Shown in pieces: positions 26,956 to 34,307 of a stretch of DNA of 64,000 nucleotides. Each line of letters begins with the position of its first letter. Positions within the stretch are counted from its first letter, which is position 1. Position numbers and translations under genes: made by a program. Origin of the DNA: Rubripirellula amarantea (GTDB lineage: Bacteria; Planctomycetota; Planctomycetia; Pirellulales; Pirellulaceae); NCBI RefSeq assembly GCF_007859865.1, contig NZ_SJPI01000001.1, positions 2,913,406 through 2,977,405 of the forward strand, read 5' to 3'. The notes beneath the pieces are model-generated. The model did not search any database. It had not been told where the DNA came from and was given only the letters and a program-made list of their open reading frames with translations.

Positions 26956-29900
26956 CTATTTCGGACTTCGGCGGTGGACGCCCAGCCCAATTTCATGAAG
27001 GTAGGCGGACCACTGCGGATTAGAATCGCATCTCTGGACGACACGTGAAAGGTTCTTTCGCCAAGTCGCAAAGGCCGGTGGTCGACCGTCGTCATAGCAT
27101 GACGCGAGTTTCTCACCAAGTTCAGTGGGAAGGCTAGAATCCACCAGTAGACATAGGTCCTGGTAGATTTTTTCTCGGTCGTTGGATTGGTAGCCTTCAT
27201 TCCCTTCGGACACCATGTACCAATAACTCAGGAAGTCACTGCGTTGCCGTCTCGGCAACGCCACCGCAATTTCCTGAACGGCGTCTGGCGTCGAAAGGCA
27301 GGGCGAAGTTTCCGATCGATCCTTCTTGGTAGCGACCAGTCTTCCCGAGTCGTCGAGCACGCGGTCGCCAATCCAGATCCATTGGCGATCAAAGAGAACG
27401 TGACAGAACTTTTCTTTCATCGAAGGATGGTCATGAATGATCTCGATCAACGTTTCGCAATCAATGTCGATCATATGTTCGACCAAAATATCGACGATCT
27501 TGCTCACTGTTTCCGGTGAACTTTCTTTAACGCCTTTTTGTTCGCCATTGAAGAGTTGAAGGTTTCTTCGTACTGCTTGAGCGAAATGAACACGTGCAAC
27601 GTCAAAGGGGAAAGTCTGCATCAAAAGCGAGGCAAGACTAAGGTGTGCGGCCGATGAAATCCGTTCGGGATGTGTGAGGTCATTCCACATCGCAACGACG
27701 TTTGATTGAACTGCGTCGCAGATCACGTTGCGACGCTGCCGTTGATCCAGTGAAAGCAAATGTCGATTTAGCGACTCTACTTCCACTTGGCTAGGGTTCT
27801 GAAGAACTCGGCAAATCTCTTGGCCAAGCAGAGATCGCAGTATCGGGTGTTGGTTCGTTGAGGCGTCCTGGATTGCGGATATTGCTGCAAGGACCGGAGT
27901 GGTGCTTTGAAGTCGCGGCGATCGTTGCAGAGTGCTCACGATAAGATCGGTGAATGCAGAACCGATGTCCCAACGAACAATCAGGTTCAATGCCTGCTCG
28001 ATCGTTGCGGTTCGATCAAATGAGGCGAAGTCACTTGCTCGACTAGTGATAATCGATAGATTGCCCGCTTCCATCAAGCGTTTAAGGCAGAGTCGCTTCG
28101 TCGCCTCCGAAGTCTTGGCATCGCATGCAATATCGATCAACACATGCGAAAAATCATGCACTTGGTGTTCCCGAAGTCTTGCGAGCGAATCGTTAAGCTC
28201 TTTGGTGCGGTCGCACTGAGCCAAGATATCCGCGGCAAGTTGGCGATCGATCAATTGGCCTGTCAGCGGTTCGATCGACTTTGGCTGATAAGAGTTGCTT
28301 CGATCTTCTCTGGTTAGCCGAATCACTTGGACACCCGGGCGAGATGAACGCCAAGTCTGGTTGGCCGTGGGGTTGCGTAGACGATCGAGGGCCATCCGCA
28401 GTTGGCGTTTGGTTTCCGGTGAACATGGTCGATCGAGCGATCGCTGGACTTTATGTATCAGCGACATCAAAAGCGGATCGTCGGCTCGATTGCTATTTTG
28501 CGACGCAAGAAAAAGTTTGGCGAGTCGCAGCAGGAGCGTTTTGGATTGGTCTGTTCGATGCAACCATCGTTTGGCATGTTCGTGCCAATGTAGGGAAGAG
28601 CATCGTTCAAGACGTACCGCATGGATCAGGAACGGGAATCGTTCTTTGGATTGCATTGCGGCATCGAACTGATCTTCGACCTTTTGGTTATTGGCAGTCG
28701 CATGAGTGATGTTGGCTGTCTCATGATTGTTCATGTTCAGCCAATGATAGGCAGCGAAATAGTCTCGGATCGCAGTAAACGCAAATGCATAAGAATCAAT
28801 CGTCGAGTTCGCCACACGAACAAGTCGACTCTGTAACAGGGGCCAATGGTGACACCCCGAATCTTGAGCAATCCGTTCGAGTTCTTCGGAGAAGAACGTG
28901 CATCTTGGGCACTGAGGGTTAAACACCATTCGGTTGGCGAGACTTGCAAACGCATCCAAGTGATTGAGACTTAGCTGGCTATTGGATGAGTCCGCGTTGT
29001 GGAGATTTTGACGAGACCATCGTACGAGTTGTTCGATAAGCCGAGTTTGGTGAAACGCTAAGTCACTGGTCTTGCAATTTGCAAACGCGGAAGTTGTCTG
29101 ATGCAACCAGAAGGGCGATTGAGTAAACTCGCGATAATGAGAGTGGATTTCCACCGCTGTTTCCGTTGCAGTTTCTTCTGTGGCCCCGTAACGATTCATG
29201 AGGGTGGAGGTAGCTACGTTGAATGCAACGTCGGACGACAATTCCTTGAGCCAGCAAAGAGTCGTTTTTTTCTGCTGGGCAAACGCTTGCGGCATTCCGC
29301 TAGCCTGCGTGGTTATCAGTGTGGTCACGTGTTCGGATTCGAATGCAATTCGTTCGCGAACTAGATCTCTTTGATCAAGGGGAACCTCGTTCCAGTTATC
29401 GAGCAGCAAGAGAAAGTTCTCGTTTGATTGGCACAGCGATCGAATTCCAACGCTTGCTTCGCGGAGTTGTTGGCTTGGACAATTCAGCGAGATGCAGAAG
29501 TATTCCATCAAGGATATGGATGGTCGTTCGCGGATGGCTGCGGCGAAGGCGACAAGGTCGACCACAATCGGATAGTCATAGTGCTCGAGGTTTCCACTTG
29601 CGCCTTGAAAGGCTAGCCATTGGACGAGAGTAGATTTCCCACTCTTCGCTTCGCCAATCACGAGTAGTTCGTGAAGAGTATCGGAAAGCAAGTCGATCAA
29701 TGGAAAGCCGATGCTACTACGGTTTGCAGCTTGAACCGACGGCATGTTGATCGCTGCTTCGCGATGGATGAAAACTTTATCGATGGGTTCGCCGCAATGA
29801 CCGGGAACGGAGGACGCAAGATGTGTCCAGCGACGGTGGCTTTGAAGTTGATCCAGCCACTGTCTTAGTAAGACGTCTGCGATCATAGGTTGGCCGGCTA

Positions 29901-30372
29901 CCGAATCCAGTTGCGCGGACACATCGAGGCACCATGATCCGTATGCCATGTGGGGCATTGCGTCGGTCCGAGACGCCCCTGCATGCGTCAGGCTTTTCGT
30001 GTGAGAGTTACGCCGCAGAGTTGACCGAGTAAAATCGCGAATAAGCGACGGACTTGGGTCGGCGTTCCAGATTCCGGAACGTTCCCAGTCAGTGATGATT
30101 GTCGGCAGCGATTCTGTATACGCAGTGGGAAGGATTCCTAGCGATCGAGCCAACGCTGCAATCCGATTCAGCAGTCGGCTAGCGGCGATGGAGCCGTTTG
30201 GATCTTGATCTGGGGACTCTTCGCGAAAGTCGGATCGCGGAGCAGCCTCTTGATGAAGCTCGTGCTGGCCTGACTCGTGATGTAGCTTCAAGAGCTGCTG
30301 GAGAACAAACTGTAAGTAACACTCGGACAGCATCTTCCTCATCCCTGATCTATCAAGTCCTTCGATTGACAT
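26956..30372 (-). CDS. STAND/NACHT-type NTPase of 1138 residues
   Basis: The ATG at 30372 is chosen because GAGG lies about eight bases upstream; a GTG at 30384 is the alternative. Residues 1-220 form an N-terminal domain I cannot place. The NTPase core follows: Walker A GEAKSGKST (240-248), Walker B LLLLDNWNEV (D at about 325), a sensor-like TLITTQAS, and then an arginine- and tryptophan-rich region (LVRWSRQNL). From about residue 480 to the end the sequence is largely helical and Leu-rich, as in HEAT/TPR-like repeat sensors. This effector-NTPase-repeat layout is that of STAND proteins, many of which are antiphage sensors (Avs type) or regulators. The defence role here is inferred from architecture only. 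It is divergent from the HTH-GNAT gene. Confidence 0.72.
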   Translation of the reverse strand: MSIEGLDRSGMRKMLSECYLQFVLQQLLKLHHESGQHELHQEAAPRSDFREESPDQDPNGSIAASRLLNRIAALARSLGILPTAYTESLPTIITDWERSGIWNADPSPSLIRDFTRSTLRRNSHTKSLTHAGASRTDAMPHMAYGSWCLDVSAQLDSVAGQPMIADVLLRQWLDQLQSHRRWTHLASSVPGHCGEPIDKVFIHREAAINMPSVQAANRSSIGFPLIDLLSDTLHELLVIGEAKSGKSTLVQWLAFQGASGNLEHYDYPIVVDLVAFAAAIRERPSISLMEYFCISLNCPSQQLREASVGIRSLCQSNENFLLLLDNWNEVPLDQRDLVRERIAFESEHVTTLITTQASGMPQAFAQQKKTTLCWLKELSSDVAFNVATSTLMNRYGATEETATETAVEIHSHYREFTQSPFWLHQTTSAFANCKTSDLAFHQTRLIEQLVRWSRQNLHNADSSNSQLSLNHLDAFASLANRMVFNPQCPRCTFFSEELERIAQDSGCHHWPLLQSRLVRVANSTIDSYAFAFTAIRDYFAAYHWLNMNNHETANITHATANNQKVEDQFDAAMQSKERFPFLIHAVRLERCSSLHWHEHAKRWLHRTDQSKTLLLRLAKLFLASQNSNRADDPLLMSLIHKVQRSLDRPCSPETKRQLRMALDRLRNPTANQTWRSSRPGVQVIRLTREDRSNSYQPKSIEPLTGQLIDRQLAADILAQCDRTKELNDSLARLREHQVHDFSHVLIDIACDAKTSEATKRLCLKRLMEAGNLSIITSRASDFASFDRTATIEQALNLIVRWDIGSAFTDLIVSTLQRSPRLQSTTPVLAAISAIQDASTNQHPILRSLLGQEICRVLQNPSQVEVESLNRHLLSLDQRQRRNVICDAVQSNVVAMWNDLTHPERISSAAHLSLASLLMQTFPFDVARVHFAQAVRRNLQLFNGEQKGVKESSPETVSKIVDILVEHMIDIDCETLIEIIHDHPSMKEKFCHVLFDRQWIWIGDRVLDDSGRLVATKKDRSETSPCLSTPDAVQEIAVALPRRQRSDFLSYWYMVSEGNEGYQSNDREKIYQDLCLLVDSSLPTELGEKLASCYDDGRPPAFATWRKNLSRVVQRCDSNPQWSAYLHEIGLGVHRRSPK

Positions 30373-30820
30373 AGGAAGCCTCACGCCTACTTGTTTCGCG
30401 GGGGCGCCTCACGCTTGCTATCGTGGACTTGGTTGGACGGAACACTCAATAGGATCACATCGATCTCTCACACGAAGGGGGGTTAGCCATCCGCCTGACA
30501 GGCGACTAGGTTGTGGAAGCAGGCTTCGATAATCGTGAGTTATCGATTTGGTCGAACACTTTTGCAGAGAATTTGCTATCGTTTTATCCTGCTACCCTTT
30601 CGGGGGTGCAGCGACTTTGATTGATCAAAAAGAGATGCGGCCAACGCGTCGAGACAGTGCCCCGATGACCAAGAATTGCAACAATTCACGACTCCCAGGT
30701 CTCGGCTCAAACGCGCTGGCCGCTCGATGGAATGTTACGACGTTGCAGTGAACGATGTGCGCAAGAGATGCGCAAAGCGAAAACATTGTCTGCAAGTGAG
30801 TCAATTAGTTCGGATTGATA
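30373..30820. other. 448-bp divergent region between STAND NTPase and HTH-GNAT genes
   Basis: This is the likely shared promoter and operator region. A perfect short palindrome CGCCTG-A-CAGGCG is at 30492-30504. A 67-codon plus-strand frame (30548-30751) has no recognisable product and is not called. Two similar GATGxGCxAAG-like words near 30755-30775 are only suggestive. No convincing -35/-10 pair was identified. Confidence 0.5.
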
Positions 30821-31906
30821 ATGCCACGCGGAAGTACTCATATTCGCCAAGCTCGGAATCGGCTTGGACTATCGCAACTGCAGGCGGCCGTTCGCGCTGA
30901 CGTGAGTGTGCGAACGCTTCAGTTTGCCGAATCGGGTAAAGAAGAAGTCACGATCCGCACGATGACCCGAATAGCGGAAGCGCTGGGACTCTCGTTAGAA
31001 GAGGCCATGCGAGACGATAACGCTTTGGAGAATGACCAGTTCAAACTGCTGCCCTGGTCGATTTCGCGTTTCATCACAGCCCGAACACAACCAACGCTAG
31101 ACTCTTATTGCCTTGATGAGGACCGTGCTCGGACAGTCATCTTGAAGATGCGAGAGTCTTGGAAAGTACATCTGGAAAACACAGGATCATCCGGCACGGA
31201 CAATCACTTCGGCGTAGCTGACCGCACGTTGGACGCCCAACTTGACGAATACCTCGAGCGTTATCTGTCGTTGTGGCGACGTTGTCCCGAATGCATTCAA
31301 GTAGCAACCGGTGCAGGCATGCAATATGGGGCAAGTGTTGTGCTTCCCGTGACGGATTCGGCTTACGAACGACTGGAACGTGGCGAAATCACATTCATGC
31401 AGATCGGGCCCGAAGATCTTGTTGAAGATAGTCAAAACATCGTGATTGATTCGGTGGTGGAGTTCGCTGGTACCGGAAATCCATCATGGCATAAATTTAC
31501 GTCGAGCCTGAGCTACTTGGTGTTCTGCCAAATTGCAATGCTCTCACAAGCGCCGACTGGTGATAATTTTCGCATGCTATCGTTTTCAGCGAGCCCCTTA
31601 AATTTGCAACGGTTACAGGCCACGGGCTTTCGGGAAACCGGAGTCACGATGCCAAAGTTTGATTATTCCATTTGCGTTTTCTCGACTCGTGAGCCTTCCG
31701 GCTACGATGAACATTACGTTCTTGCGTCAACAACAGCGCACTTCTCGCATTTGGTACAAGGCTTGTGCAACGCGACCGCTCGCATTCGCGATCGACGTGT
31801 CATGATTAAGCACACGCTGGGACTGTTAAACAAATTCTTGAAGCGGCCCAGACTTCGCAGTCTTATCGCTCGAGAAGTTGATCAGCAACAAACTTTCGCT
31901 GGTTGA
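30821..31906 (+). CDS. XRE-type HTH protein fused to a GNAT-like domain
   Basis: The ATG at 30821 is preferred to a TTG two codons upstream. Residues 8-62 are a classic XRE/Cro helix-turn-helix (ARNRLGLSQLQAAVRADVSV, then TMTRIAEALGLSLEEAM). The remaining 300 residues include a mixed alpha/beta stretch (YGASVVLPVTDSAYERLERG, IVIDSVVEFAG, NLQRLQATGFRETG) resembling the GNAT fold of autoinducer-synthase or N-acyl-amino-acid synthase relatives. The GNAT reading is an inference from strand pattern, not a clear motif. The likely role is transcriptional control by a small acyl or CoA ligand. Its 3' end overlaps the convergent adenylating-enzyme gene by 81 bases. Confidence 0.65.
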   Translation: MPRGSTHIRQARNRLGLSQLQAAVRADVSVRTLQFAESGKEEVTIRTMTRIAEALGLSLEEAMRDDNALENDQFKLLPWSISRFITARTQPTLDSYCLDEDRARTVILKMRESWKVHLENTGSSGTDNHFGVADRTLDAQLDEYLERYLSLWRRCPECIQVATGAGMQYGASVVLPVTDSAYERLERGEITFMQIGPEDLVEDSQNIVIDSVVEFAGTGNPSWHKFTSSLSYLVFCQIAMLSQAPTGDNFRMLSFSASPLNLQRLQATGFRETGVTMPKFDYSICVFSTREPSGYDEHYVLASTTAHFSHLVQGLCNATARIRDRRVMIKHTLGLLNKFLKRPRLRSLIAREVDQQQTFAG

Positions 31907-32827
31907 TTCAAAACTCTGCCATGTAGGTTTGCTTTGCAGTGACCCGCCGTGACGTTCCCAAAATTGGTGGAAGCTCAATAACGTCTTCTGACCGTTCAGC
32001 TGATGACCCTCTCGCAGCTGGAACGTAAAGCGATCCGATTCGTATCGCAGATAACCGGTCCGGGATACCCACTGTTCCGCTCGCCAGGATTCGATCTCGC
32101 GACGTACCTGACTAGCGAGTCGATAGGCAGAGCTACGAATTAGCCAGTGGTCCCCGATTGCTTGAGCATAGTCGCCGGTGCAAATGGATCGGCCTTCGCG
32201 GGATAGAACCAAGCTCCCTTGCTTGTCATCCACGGAGGCAAGCACATCACTGGCGACGAGCCGGTAAAGTGGCTCACCGAGTTCGTCTCGATGAGTTGCA
32301 GCAAAGCAAGTGTGCCCCACTTCCGCGACGCCATAACAATGCAAGACGTCAAGTTGGCATCCACGATCGGCCAACTGCTGCGTCATGTACGTTTCAAGGG
32401 AAGCGGGGAAGTAGTACCCGCCGGCTGCCCAAAGCATACGTTTGGGTAGGCCGTACGGGGTGTTCAACATTTTGATTAGCAAGTCGGCACCCGCTAGCGG
32501 TTGCGCGGCAAATACAACGCTGCGTTCTTGTTGAGTGGCAAGACGCAGCGAGCGAATCAACGTGGGAGCGTGTAAATACGTGTCGACAAACGGCACCGAA
32601 GTTTGGATTCCCAACGCGGCCGGATAAGCACTAATGATCATCGCGCGATCATTCAGGACCTGTCCGAGCGATGGGAATGCTTGGACCAGTTCGCCAATTC
32701 GACCATGATCCCCGTGTCCGATGACACGATACCCGCCGGGTTCTAACGAGGTAGAACCCGCAGCATAGGAGAGTTGGCATGGACCCTGAGGGAAAACAGA
32801 ATCTTCGGGCGTTTGCGTAGCGATCAT
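31826..32827 (-). CDS. Compact adenylate-forming (ANL/PaaK/LuxE-like) enzyme
   Basis: The ATG at 32827 overlaps the methyltransferase stop by ATGA; the frame extends upstream but that part lies inside the neighbour gene. The 333-residue protein shows ANL motifs in order: a P-loop-like YAAGSTSLEPGG (21-32), HCYGVAEVGH (163-172, like the A5 YGxTE) and ICTGDYA (215-221, like A7 TGD). It most resembles the PaaK/LuxE branch, which activates carboxylic acids as adenylates. It is short for the superfamily (usually above 400), lacking much of the N-terminal subdomain. It probably activates an acid used by the acyltransferase or methyltransferase upstream. Confidence 0.6.
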   Translation of the reverse strand: MIATQTPEDSVFPQGPCQLSYAAGSTSLEPGGYRVIGHGDHGRIGELVQAFPSLGQVLNDRAMIISAYPAALGIQTSVPFVDTYLHAPTLIRSLRLATQQERSVVFAAQPLAGADLLIKMLNTPYGLPKRMLWAAGGYYFPASLETYMTQQLADRGCQLDVLHCYGVAEVGHTCFAATHRDELGEPLYRLVASDVLASVDDKQGSLVLSREGRSICTGDYAQAIGDHWLIRSSAYRLASQVRREIESWRAEQWVSRTGYLRYESDRFTFQLREGHQLNGQKTLLSFHQFWERHGGSLQSKPTWQSFESTSESLLLINFSSDKTAKSGPLQEFV

Positions 32828-33543
32828 CGACGGGTCCCGTAAAGTACTTCGAACGGAGGTTCTGCGACTAAGTTTTCCATTCGGCGTTCGCGAACCAAGG
32901 TTCCCTTGACGTCCCAGCACGACAATTCAAACCACTCGCTTAGAAACTTCATCAGGAAAAACGGCTGCCAGATGCGTGTCCGGATCCACGAGTCATCGTA
33001 AGAAAACACGCCTTCGGTCGATTCAGGACGCTCATGCGTCCACGCTTGGTTCCACTGAAAGTCCGTACGAGCAATCTCTTGCGTTCGCCGCGACGTGAAC
33101 GCATCACCCGGCACAACACATGCAAAGGCACCGCCACGTTTGAGCAAGCTCGACATTTTCATCGCGGTCGTTTCCAATTCATCGAGCGTCAAGACGTGAT
33201 TCAAGAACCACGCTGAACTGATCAAGTCGAAAGATCCTTCATTGGCTTGGAAGTCGTCAAAGCTGGCGCAAGTGAAGGAGGTTCCTTCGCGGTGACTTTG
33301 CGAATGAGCGATTTGAATCAAGTCTTCGGAACTGTCAACGCCCACAATGTTGTAAGCGAAGGGCTCTAGAACTCGCGTTGATTCGCCATGACCACATGCG
33401 ATGTCCAAAGCACGTTCGCATGGTTGCGGCAAGAGTTGTTCGAGAGCCAAGTGGTGACATCGATGAACGCTGTCGTAGTACTCTCGCACCTGATTGGCTT
33501 GTGATTTGTAACGGTCGTAGTTTTGCCAACGATAGGTCGTCAT
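32824..33543 (-). CDS. Class I SAM-dependent methyltransferase
   Basis: The ATG at 33543 (MTTYRWQNYD) lies two bases after the acyltransferase stop; the 26 extra upstream codons overlap that gene and are discounted. Motif I is RALDIACGHGEST (44-56), VGVDSSEDLI follows as the ribose-binding acidic strand, and FDLISSAWFLNHV matches motif IV of UbiE/COQ5-like enzymes. The protein has 239 residues. The substrate is not evident; genes on both sides suggest a small acyl-containing molecule rather than DNA or rRNA. Confidence 0.8.
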   Translation of the reverse strand: MTTYRWQNYDRYKSQANQVREYYDSVHRCHHLALEQLLPQPCERALDIACGHGESTRVLEPFAYNIVGVDSSEDLIQIAHSQSHREGTSFTCASFDDFQANEGSFDLISSAWFLNHVLTLDELETTAMKMSSLLKRGGAFACVVPGDAFTSRRTQEIARTDFQWNQAWTHERPESTEGVFSYDDSWIRTRIWQPFFLMKFLSEWFELSCWDVKGTLVRERRMENLVAEPPFEVLYGTRR

Positions 33544-33545
33544 GG

Positions 33546-34307
33546 TTAAGCACCTTGGAAGTGACGGGATGGAAAGGGATGAGAATGGATACCGACATTC
33601 GCAATCGGAGGACTTTGGCAATCGTCGTCTGCGGATTGATGAATGTCATGGCAACGTGCAATGTCCGCCGCCGTGATCGGTTGTTCGACCTTCTCGAATA
33701 GATCTGAAAAGAACGATCTTGAATTTGGGTCTGCACGCATCAGCAAGCAGATACTTGCGGTGCCTAGCAAAGGATGAACGAACTCGGAATCCTGAATGAC
33801 TTCGAATCCAATTCGTTTGTAGAACGGAACAAGCTTCTGGTCGGCGTTTATCAAAACTAAGCGAGAGCCTTGGACGATCTGGTCTCGCCACGCGTGTCGC
33901 AACATCATTCTTAAAGTGCGGAACGACGATTTTCCCGTTCCTGAAATTCGGAACTTACACGTCGTAAACACTTCCTGGTGGAACGATTTCAGGATGCAGG
34001 ATGGGTAGATGGACTGGCAATCGAGAATGCCGTCCACCAAACGAGTGACGGTGAGCGTGCCAACGGCAAGTTCGCCGTCAAGCAAGCCGTAGTGATAGCT
34101 GTAAGCGTCAAAAGGAAATTGAACGGGCCCCGAATTGCCGCGGCCACGAACGTCGACCAAATGCTCATACAGCGAATTTTGGTCTCCAAAGTCACGCACG
34201 ACCTTCAGTCCCGTTTCCCAGTCCTTGGCGAGAACTTGGTAACCGCGACTTTCTTCGGCTACCAATGGCACCCTGCGCGGCTTTAAAATCAAAGTTGAAT
34301 TGACCAT
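33546..34307 (-). CDS. FeeM-like N-acyl amino acid synthase / GNAT acyltransferase
   Basis: A 253-residue protein with a GNAT core: YHYGLLDGELAVGTLTVTRL (71-90), then CKFRISGTGKSSFRTLRMML where an acyl-CoA/ACP-binding turn is expected (117-136), and ADQKLVPFYKRIGFEVI (155-171), the strand-helix signature shared with FeeM-type N-acyl amino acid synthases and LuxI-like autoinducer synthases. FeeM enzymes move a fatty acyl chain from acyl-ACP to an amino acid. It is the first gene of a three-gene operon followed by methyltransferase and adenylating enzyme. The substrate is unproven. Confidence 0.65.
   Translation of the reverse strand: MVNSTLILKPRRVPLVAEESRGYQVLAKDWETGLKVVRDFGDQNSLYEHLVDVRGRGNSGPVQFPFDAYSYHYGLLDGELAVGTLTVTRLVDGILDCQSIYPSCILKSFHQEVFTTCKFRISGTGKSSFRTLRMMLRHAWRDQIVQGSRLVLINADQKLVPFYKRIGFEVIQDSEFVHPLLGTASICLLMRADPNSRSFFSDLFEKVEQPITAADIARCHDIHQSADDDCQSPPIANVGIHSHPFPSRHFQGA

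Follow-up and report, generated by a model that had tools for sequence, protein, structure and literature searches.

Genes and distribution of the cassette

The 64,000-nt stretch of Rubripirellula amarantea DNA analysed in this study (the window; positions 2,913,406 to 2,977,405 of contig NZ_SJPI01000001.1) carries a minus-strand operon of three genes, encoding a FeeM-like N-acyltransferase, an S-adenosylmethionine (SAM)-dependent methyltransferase and a compact adenylate-forming-like (ANL-like) protein. This operon converges on a gene for a helix-turn-helix (HTH) protein, whose C-terminal half resembles a GNAT fold. An earlier note, made from the sequence alone, had described these genes as a possible operon for the synthesis of an N-acyl signal, facing its own regulator. 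All four open reading frames (ORFs) were confirmed at their coordinates, as was their packing: the FeeM-like gene ends two bases ahead of the methyltransferase gene, which in turn overlaps the ANL-like gene by ATGA, and the HTH gene is convergent with the three. The features of the locus, including those that lie upstream of the HTH gene, are the following:

33546..34307, minus strand: FeeM-like N-acyltransferase, core gene, first in the operon (Pfam FeeM, 28.3 bits against a cut-off of 27)
32824..33543, minus strand: SAM-dependent methyltransferase, accessory gene (Methyltransf_11, E=1.6e-15)
31826..32827, minus strand: compact ANL-like protein of 333 amino acids (aa), core gene (profile comparison, conserved motifs)
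30821..31906, plus strand: protein with an HTH (XRE-like) N-terminal domain and a GNAT-fold-like C-terminal half (HTH_3, E=8.9e-13; fold match)
31826..31906, no strand: convergent 3' overlap of the HTH and ANL-like genes, 81 bp in the window
30620..30724, minus strand: structured RNA, divergent from the HTH gene, with a long P1/P2 stem (covariance model, 40.7 bits, E=6.7e-9)
30658-30663, minus strand: GGGGCA of the structured RNA, invariant in the RNA set
about 30627-30631, minus strand: T-run behind the RNA stem
30732..30737, minus strand: promoter-like TANNNT hexamer (TAACAT) ahead of the RNA, spaced 21 nt from the proximal repeat
30759..30775, no strand: tandem direct repeat GCGCAA-N5-GCGCAA with an 11-bp period, a probable (predicted) binding site of the HTH protein
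26956..30384, minus strand: NACHT-type STAND ATPase, accessory gene, with a likely ATG start near 30372 (Pfam NACHT, E=1.4e-9)

Searches with single sequences suggested that the locus is a singleton: the cassette protein P0001 retrieved only itself in 22 genomes of the genus and 392 genomes of the phylum, P0003 retrieved only itself in 343 genomes, and no further copy was found in plasmids, viral contigs or one genome scan. This view was overturned by profile searches. A profile built from three sequences of the HTH protein's C-terminal half first reached a locus of Rhodopirellula maiorica SM1 (53% identity in the best segment), and a profile of two ANL-like proteins, those of the window and of R. 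maiorica, identified the cassette in 17 of 241 Pirellulaceae genomes, i.e. in R. amarantea and in 16 others belonging to three other genera. Only one of the 22 genomes of the genus contains it, no congener being matched, and a 17-row profile applied to 263 genomes spread evenly over the phylum matched the R. amarantea genome and none of the other 262. The cassette set considered below comprises 17 loci: the window, the R. maiorica locus (L083) and L102-L116 (L101, a duplicate of L083, was dropped). The earlier note had named two outcomes that could refute the idea of a signal operon, a fold showing the FeeM-like or the HTH protein to be no GNAT and a neighbourhood not conserved in relatives. 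Neither test went against it, and the cassette is carried by these 17 loci. Since the arrangement recurs in 16 further genomes, it is beyond chance. The FeeM-like/methyltransferase/ANL-like operon is real.

In R. maiorica the NACHT, HTH-GNAT, ANL-like, methyltransferase and FeeM-like genes have the same order and orientation as in the window, and the identities of their products are 28.6% (over 1097 aligned residues), 46.8%, 49.2%, 67.8% and 43.8%, respectively. Nonsynonymous divergence (dN) between these two loci amounts to 0.92 for NACHT, 0.49 for HTH and 0.26 for the methyltransferase, while synonymous divergence (dS) is saturated (2.7 or more) for these three genes and not computable for the other two; purifying selection on the cassette genes is therefore indicated rather than measured.

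The FeeM-like and ANL-like genes are present in all 17 loci. The HTH-GNAT gene was found in 16 of them and is convergent in all 16; the contig of L110 stops at the ANL-like gene, so that counts for the HTH side refer to 16 loci. The tail-to-tail overlap of the HTH and ANL-like genes measures 44-55 bp in 14 of the 15 other loci and 299 bp in L108. The methyltransferase, encoded in ten loci, is optional because it is absent from the other seven (L103, L107 and L112-L116), and in L110 it is fused to the ANL-like protein, which ties both proteins to one pathway. The NACHT gene, counted over the stretch around each locus, accompanies the cassette in 10 of 17 cases, including the window (in L109 on the opposite side), and was not seen in L111, in L112-L116 or in L110, whose contig ends before the NACHT side. 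The four-gene set of the earlier note thus persists as a core of FeeM-like, ANL-like and HTH-GNAT genes with an optional methyltransferase; the NACHT gene and the RNA had been missed.

The distances of the three core families correlate with r=0.96-0.97, a value reached by none of 2000 permutations, which may reflect the species tree alone. Flanking proteins are common within three groups of loci (L083/L102/L103, L104-L106 and L112-L116), the last of which shares one chromosomal setting and shows no NACHT in the stretch examined. The flanks of the window share no protein with any other cassette locus. Since the flanks of the groups differ and the window shares none of them, the cassette sits in several chromosomal settings. 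It is absent from all ten congeneric tex regions examined (tex being a neighbour named by eye, and L067 covering only 5.6 kb), and no clean empty site was seen among them. In R. maiorica a tRNA gene is located directly past the FeeM-like end of the cassette (L083, 11581-11653); tRNA genes are a common insertion place for islands.

The encoded proteins

With its score over the 27-bit cut-off, applied here to the window protein, the first product of the operon falls within the FeeM family of N-acyl amino acid synthases (PF21926). When homologues are counted at E<=0.1, 13 of 17 match Pfam FeeM, the best with E=3.7e-10. In profile alignments, the FeeM-like family of the cassette reached a probability of 84% with the canonical FeeM genes of the genus, 81% with another FeeM-like set and 20% with GNATs of its own genome. 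These results, which come from profiles and involve no predicted fold, support the view, already expressed in the earlier note, that the first operon gene encodes a FeeM-type acyltransferase. Its position in the family is distant (28.3 bits, compared with 140.8 for a canonical FeeM gene of the same genome), and the partner genes and the regulator of the cassette differ from those of known FeeM synthases, a family known to act on free amino acids. The canonical gene resides elsewhere in the genome (C1:3064306-3064779; L082, 8097-8894), beside a 1425-aa ORF. A separate operon, composed of genes for a FeeM-like GNAT (211 aa), a methyltransferase (about 277 aa) and a fatty acid desaturase, is present in 5 of the 22 genomes of the genus (L076-L080, genomes G004-G008); its FeeM-like protein in L077, the only one of the five that was scanned, scores 24.7 bits, under the Pfam cut-off. 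The second cassette gene was correctly read as a SAM methyltransferase, given its Methyltransf_11 match.

The ANL-like protein of the window matches no Pfam family up to E=1. When its family profile was compared with a set of ten AMP-binding proteins from this genome, four of which were short fragments, the score was 38.8; the controls did not exceed 21.8 in 60 column shuffles, 17.1 for the reversed profile and 20.1 against unrelated sets. Three motifs, S[YF][AS]AGSxS, GVAExxHT and KPxW, are kept in all 17 proteins. The first two we take to be the A3-like phosphate loop and the A5-like YGxxE (the YGVAE sequence aligns to the A5 position), and the invariant lysine of KPxW may stand for the A10 lysine. 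Moreover, the best Foldseek match of a low-confidence model is an adenylation domain (E=1.9e-3). A relationship to adenylate-forming enzymes, which the earlier note had read from motifs, is therefore supported by both profile and motif correspondence. The protein differs from ANL enzymes in its size and in having no Pfam family at the cut-off: at about 330 aa it begins at the A3-like loop, without most of the N-terminal subdomain, and would thus be a compact or reduced form. The cassette also brings to light an orphan family of proteins that show traits of adenylate-forming enzymes.

All 16 HTH-GNAT homologues contain HTH_3. Their C-terminal half, in a low-confidence model based on three sequences, shows a GNAT-like order of strands and helices, as the earlier note had suspected. 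The best of its 645 fold matches, and the only one at E<=0.001, has E=4.2e-4; among the best 50 of the 645, 44 carry a title or enzyme name that marks them as acetyltransferases or GNAT/HAT-like, and the remaining six (1wwz twice, 7byy twice, 6dym and 7uci) are presumably GNAT-like as well. The acyl-CoA pyrophosphate loop of GNATs, [QR]xxGx[GA], was found in the expected region of none of the 16 proteins, which makes a binding role likelier than catalysis. This suggests that the GNAT-like half acts as a sensor, and the whole protein is probably both autoregulator and sensor. An HTH-fused GNAT-like fold lacking the cofactor loop would represent a plausible route from enzyme fold to sensor. At the thresholds applied, neither the HTH protein nor any of its homologues showed a LuxR-type receptor or autoinducer-binding Pfam domain. 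Distant relatives of this protein (L073, 7532-8626; L074, 7319-8578) reside in conjugative-like elements, divergent from neighbouring genes; the coupling-protein-, relaxase- and ParB-like neighbours in these elements were named by eye.

The divergent RNA and the tandem repeats

Divergently from the HTH gene lies a structured RNA some 100 nt long, which a covariance model detected in 14 of the 17 cassette loci and in none of 20 other loci. The model recovers its own 14 source sequences at E<=7e-9 (that of the window, which is among them, being the weakest match); across the rest of the 640 kb searched, including the 20 loci without the cassette, no hit falls below E=0.08. L109 and L111 have no detectable RNA even with the filters off, and divergent forms of it were rejected there (best 11.1 bits, E=0.2). 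Response-regulator-like receiver proteins, recognised by eye, are encoded near these two RNA-less cassettes (L109, 15163-15720; L111, 3906-4424). Rfam 15 gave no match up to E=1 between positions 30300 and 34400 of the window, and for six of the 16 other loci it returned only two tRNAs at the gathering threshold.

The sequence GGGGCA is invariant in all 14 RNAs, for which it also served as the collecting anchor. On a plain MAFFT alignment RNAalifold proposed nine pairs, six of them with changes on both sides and some of them broken in up to four sequences. In a swap test, the stem arms of the 14 RNAs paired with their own partners at a mean of -33.5 kcal/mol, compared with an average of -15.5 for 150 between-group swaps; each own pair was better than every swap of its 5' arm, and a single swap of the 150 equalled the weakest own pair. 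The stem is kept by compensation.

The reverse strand forms the more stable fold in 12 of 14 cases for a short segment and in 11 of 14 for a longer one, for which the z-scores range from -2.2 to -5.4 (reverse) and from -0.6 to -5.2 (forward). A placement of the RNA on the reverse strand is favoured by the T-runs, with at least four Ts after the stem in 9 of the 14 sequences (counted on the alignment) and fewer than four in a row in the other five, and by the spacing of a promoter-like site. Upstream of the HTH gene the exact pair GCGCAA-N5-GCGCAA is present in 12 of 16 loci, and variants of it in the other four (one base changed in L105, L106 and L109, a 12-bp period in L111), the background of TGCGCA being 0.06 per 300 bp. 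Read on the reverse strand, TTGCGC is followed by TANNNT after exactly 21 nt in all 15 loci with the tandem repeat, L111 being unmatched. The proximal repeat would lie near a -35 position, where a bound regulator could activate the RNA or repress the units on both sides.

A possible signal module, its alternatives and its relation to known systems

Taken together, these features may be read as a co-inherited Pirellulaceae cassette that produces an N-acylated small molecule, probably one linked to a fatty acid, and reacts to it, a proposal to which we assign a probability of about 50%. The ANL-like protein would activate a carboxylic acid, the FeeM-like enzyme would transfer an acyl group onto an amine or an amino acid, and in loci that encode it the methyltransferase would methylate the product. 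The degenerate GNAT-like domain of the HTH protein could bind this product or an acyl intermediate. The HTH domain would recognise the tandem repeats and so control both the HTH gene and the divergent RNA, and the output might be carried by the RNA, together with NACHT where it occurs. On this view the cassette plausibly serves signalling, with the HTH-GNAT protein as a sensor that regulates its own gene and with a small RNA, and we infer, as the earlier note did, that a signal may be both made and sensed by it. The weakest steps are product sensing and the action of the RNA. The idea of an operon facing its own regulator holds as far as the convergent orientation is concerned; the genes meet tail to tail, which is uninformative on promoter control, and the repeats lie on the HTH/RNA side. 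A more specific version is clearly more tentative: the cassette might be a new regulatory module, in which an HTH-fused pseudo-GNAT senses what the N-acyl pathway of the cassette produces and drives expression of a divergent RNA of a family new to Rfam. This RNA would be trans-acting or would itself be acted on by the adenylate-forming, acyl- and methyltransferase enzymes of the cassette, and NACHT would form an optional output arm.

Several observations speak against the proposed signal cassette. In the ANL-like family the TGD sequence with the A7 aspartate is not conserved, with 4 of 17 members having it in a pattern count not tied to one alignment column (TED, TGE or TKE in eight, none of these in five). 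Pfam AMP-binding is matched by 2 of the 17, at best with E=0.11, and a profile search of the PDB gave no ANL relative. The structural model of this protein has a mean predicted local distance difference test (pLDDT) score of 46, and none of its 839 fold matches is at E<=0.001, the next-best ones being mostly Argonautes. Kinship with Argonautes was itself rejected, as those matches span only about 104-120 columns with a high root-mean-square deviation on a poor model. The model of the HTH protein's C-terminal half has a mean pLDDT of 49 (70-89 for residues 171-210 and 271-290), and in profile comparisons this half resembles neither the GNATs of its own genome (hhalign probability 0.4%) nor FeeM. 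HTH-GNAT relatives outside the family (L073-L075) have no FeeM- or ANL-like neighbour recognised by eye. As for the RNA, both strands fold well, so that folding does not settle its strand, and no consistent target was found inside the cassette: pairing of GGGGCA with the cassette start regions gave p<=0.05 in 3 of 58 tests (NACHT in L103, HTH in L104 and L106), about chance level.

To these points must be added that no clear operator is common to the FeeM and HTH upstream regions. The best stretch shared by the two exceeded the best of eight shuffles in only 3 of 16 loci (L109, L112 and L116), and a shared operator was dropped as a candidate. A single TGCGCA precedes the FeeM-like gene in 5 of 17 loci, four of which are close relatives. 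In L112, L114, L115 and L116, four of a group of five close relatives, such a sequence is found at -50 to -133, as though the operon in these loci were a further target of the regulator. With no common operator apparent at the biosynthetic genes, synthesis may be under no feedback at all or may receive it by way of the RNA.

The cassette could instead be a secondary-metabolite cluster of the stieleriacine kind, yielding an antimicrobial or surface-active N-acyl product, with the HTH protein as an ordinary regulator without sensing. We regard this as possible, though not probable. Stieleria is known to have FeeM-type synthases accompanied by a methyltransferase (PMC12479983, PMC7293339), and both the patchy distribution of the cassette (17 of 241 genomes) and its optional methyltransferase are in line with such a role. 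On the other hand, the partners named in the available parts of these accounts are a ThiF-like protein and a nitroreductase, not ANL-like or HTH-GNAT proteins; the repeats are conserved on the HTH/RNA side and not visibly at the biosynthetic operon, and a conserved structured RNA would be unexpected in a cluster of this type.

A further alternative concerns the RNA element, which might be a mere transcription terminator, or a hairpin of the DNA separating two divergent units. The long stem followed by at least four Ts in 9 of 14 sequences, and the good folding of both strands, agree with this explanation, which we nonetheless consider unlikely: a terminator needs no invariant GGGGCA, internal P2 stem or promoter-like hexamer at a fixed distance, and five of the RNAs have fewer than four consecutive Ts.

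A defence-like cassette, with NACHT as sensor or killer and the enzymes and RNA supplying or restraining a trigger, is more doubtful still. NACHT is found in 10 of 17 loci and is the least similar of the five proteins between the window and R. maiorica (28.6% against 44-68%), the flanks of the window share no protein with other loci, the cassette occurs in one of 22 genomes of the genus, and a tRNA gene adjoins it in L083. Nevertheless, seven of the 17 loci show no NACHT in the stretch examined (in L110 the contig ends first), and five of these (L112-L116) share one chromosomal setting; PADLOC, moreover, has no model for NACHT, FeeM-like or ANL-like proteins, and offered only mad2 (methyltransferase part) and HTH-part models. 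That the RNA is a substrate or carrier, so that the ANL-like, GNAT-like and methyltransferase proteins act on it or on a tRNA which it mimics and not on a free amino acid, is very improbable: the RNA is found beside the core in 14 of 17 loci, including five without methyltransferase and NACHT, and its GGGGCA (also the collecting anchor) is invariant, but FeeM enzymes are known to use free amino acids, and L109 and L111 keep the core without detectable RNA.

Returning to the proposed signal cassette, its closest described counterparts by family and gene content include the stieleriacine clusters of Stieleria, in which an N-acyl amino acid synthase has a methyltransferase nearby (PMC7293339, PMC12479983). 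These come from the same bacterial family and share synthase and methyltransferase with the cassette, from which they differ in having ThiF-like, nitroreductase, desaturase and PEP-CTERM neighbours; an ANL-like protein, an HTH-GNAT protein and a structured RNA are not described in the parts of those papers available (PMC7293339, PMC12479983). Neither ThiF-like nor nitroreductase proteins were present among the five cassette proteins and three neighbours scanned with Pfam. Another planctomycete enzyme, OlsH, is described in the accessible part of its report as a GH3-like, ATP-dependent N-acyl ornithine synthase (PMC12493201). ATP-dependent formation of an N-acyl amino acid in a planctomycete would be common to both systems, as far as it is proposed for the cassette; compared by description, the GH3-like enzyme performs the whole amide-forming step, whereas the cassette has a separate FeeM-like transferase. 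A roseobacter has been found to contain N-acyl alanine methyl esters, for which earlier studies, according to the portion of the source at hand, gave no synthase candidates (PMC11580390), and planctomycete N-acyl tyrosines are reported, in the part of the work available, to affect biofilms (PMC7293339).

In the open-licence literature we found no description of the cassette, nor a pair of signal synthase and receptor for planctomycetes. A single operon, a regulator, a promoter-like site accompanied by a clear repeat and an RNA new to Rfam make the cassette a compact, testable signal candidate, and it is the conserved repeat, promoter-like site and RNA that sharpen the tests of the signal hypothesis.

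LuxI/LuxR quorum sensing combines an N-acyl synthase with a dedicated HTH regulator and downstream small RNAs. The cassette differs from it in that its regulator is XRE-like with a GNAT-like half, its synthase and regulator genes are convergent, and its proteins have no Pfam match to a LuxR-type or autoinducer-synthase family. The likeness would therefore be one of working principle, an N-acyl synthase, an HTH regulator and a small RNA being brought together in both systems.

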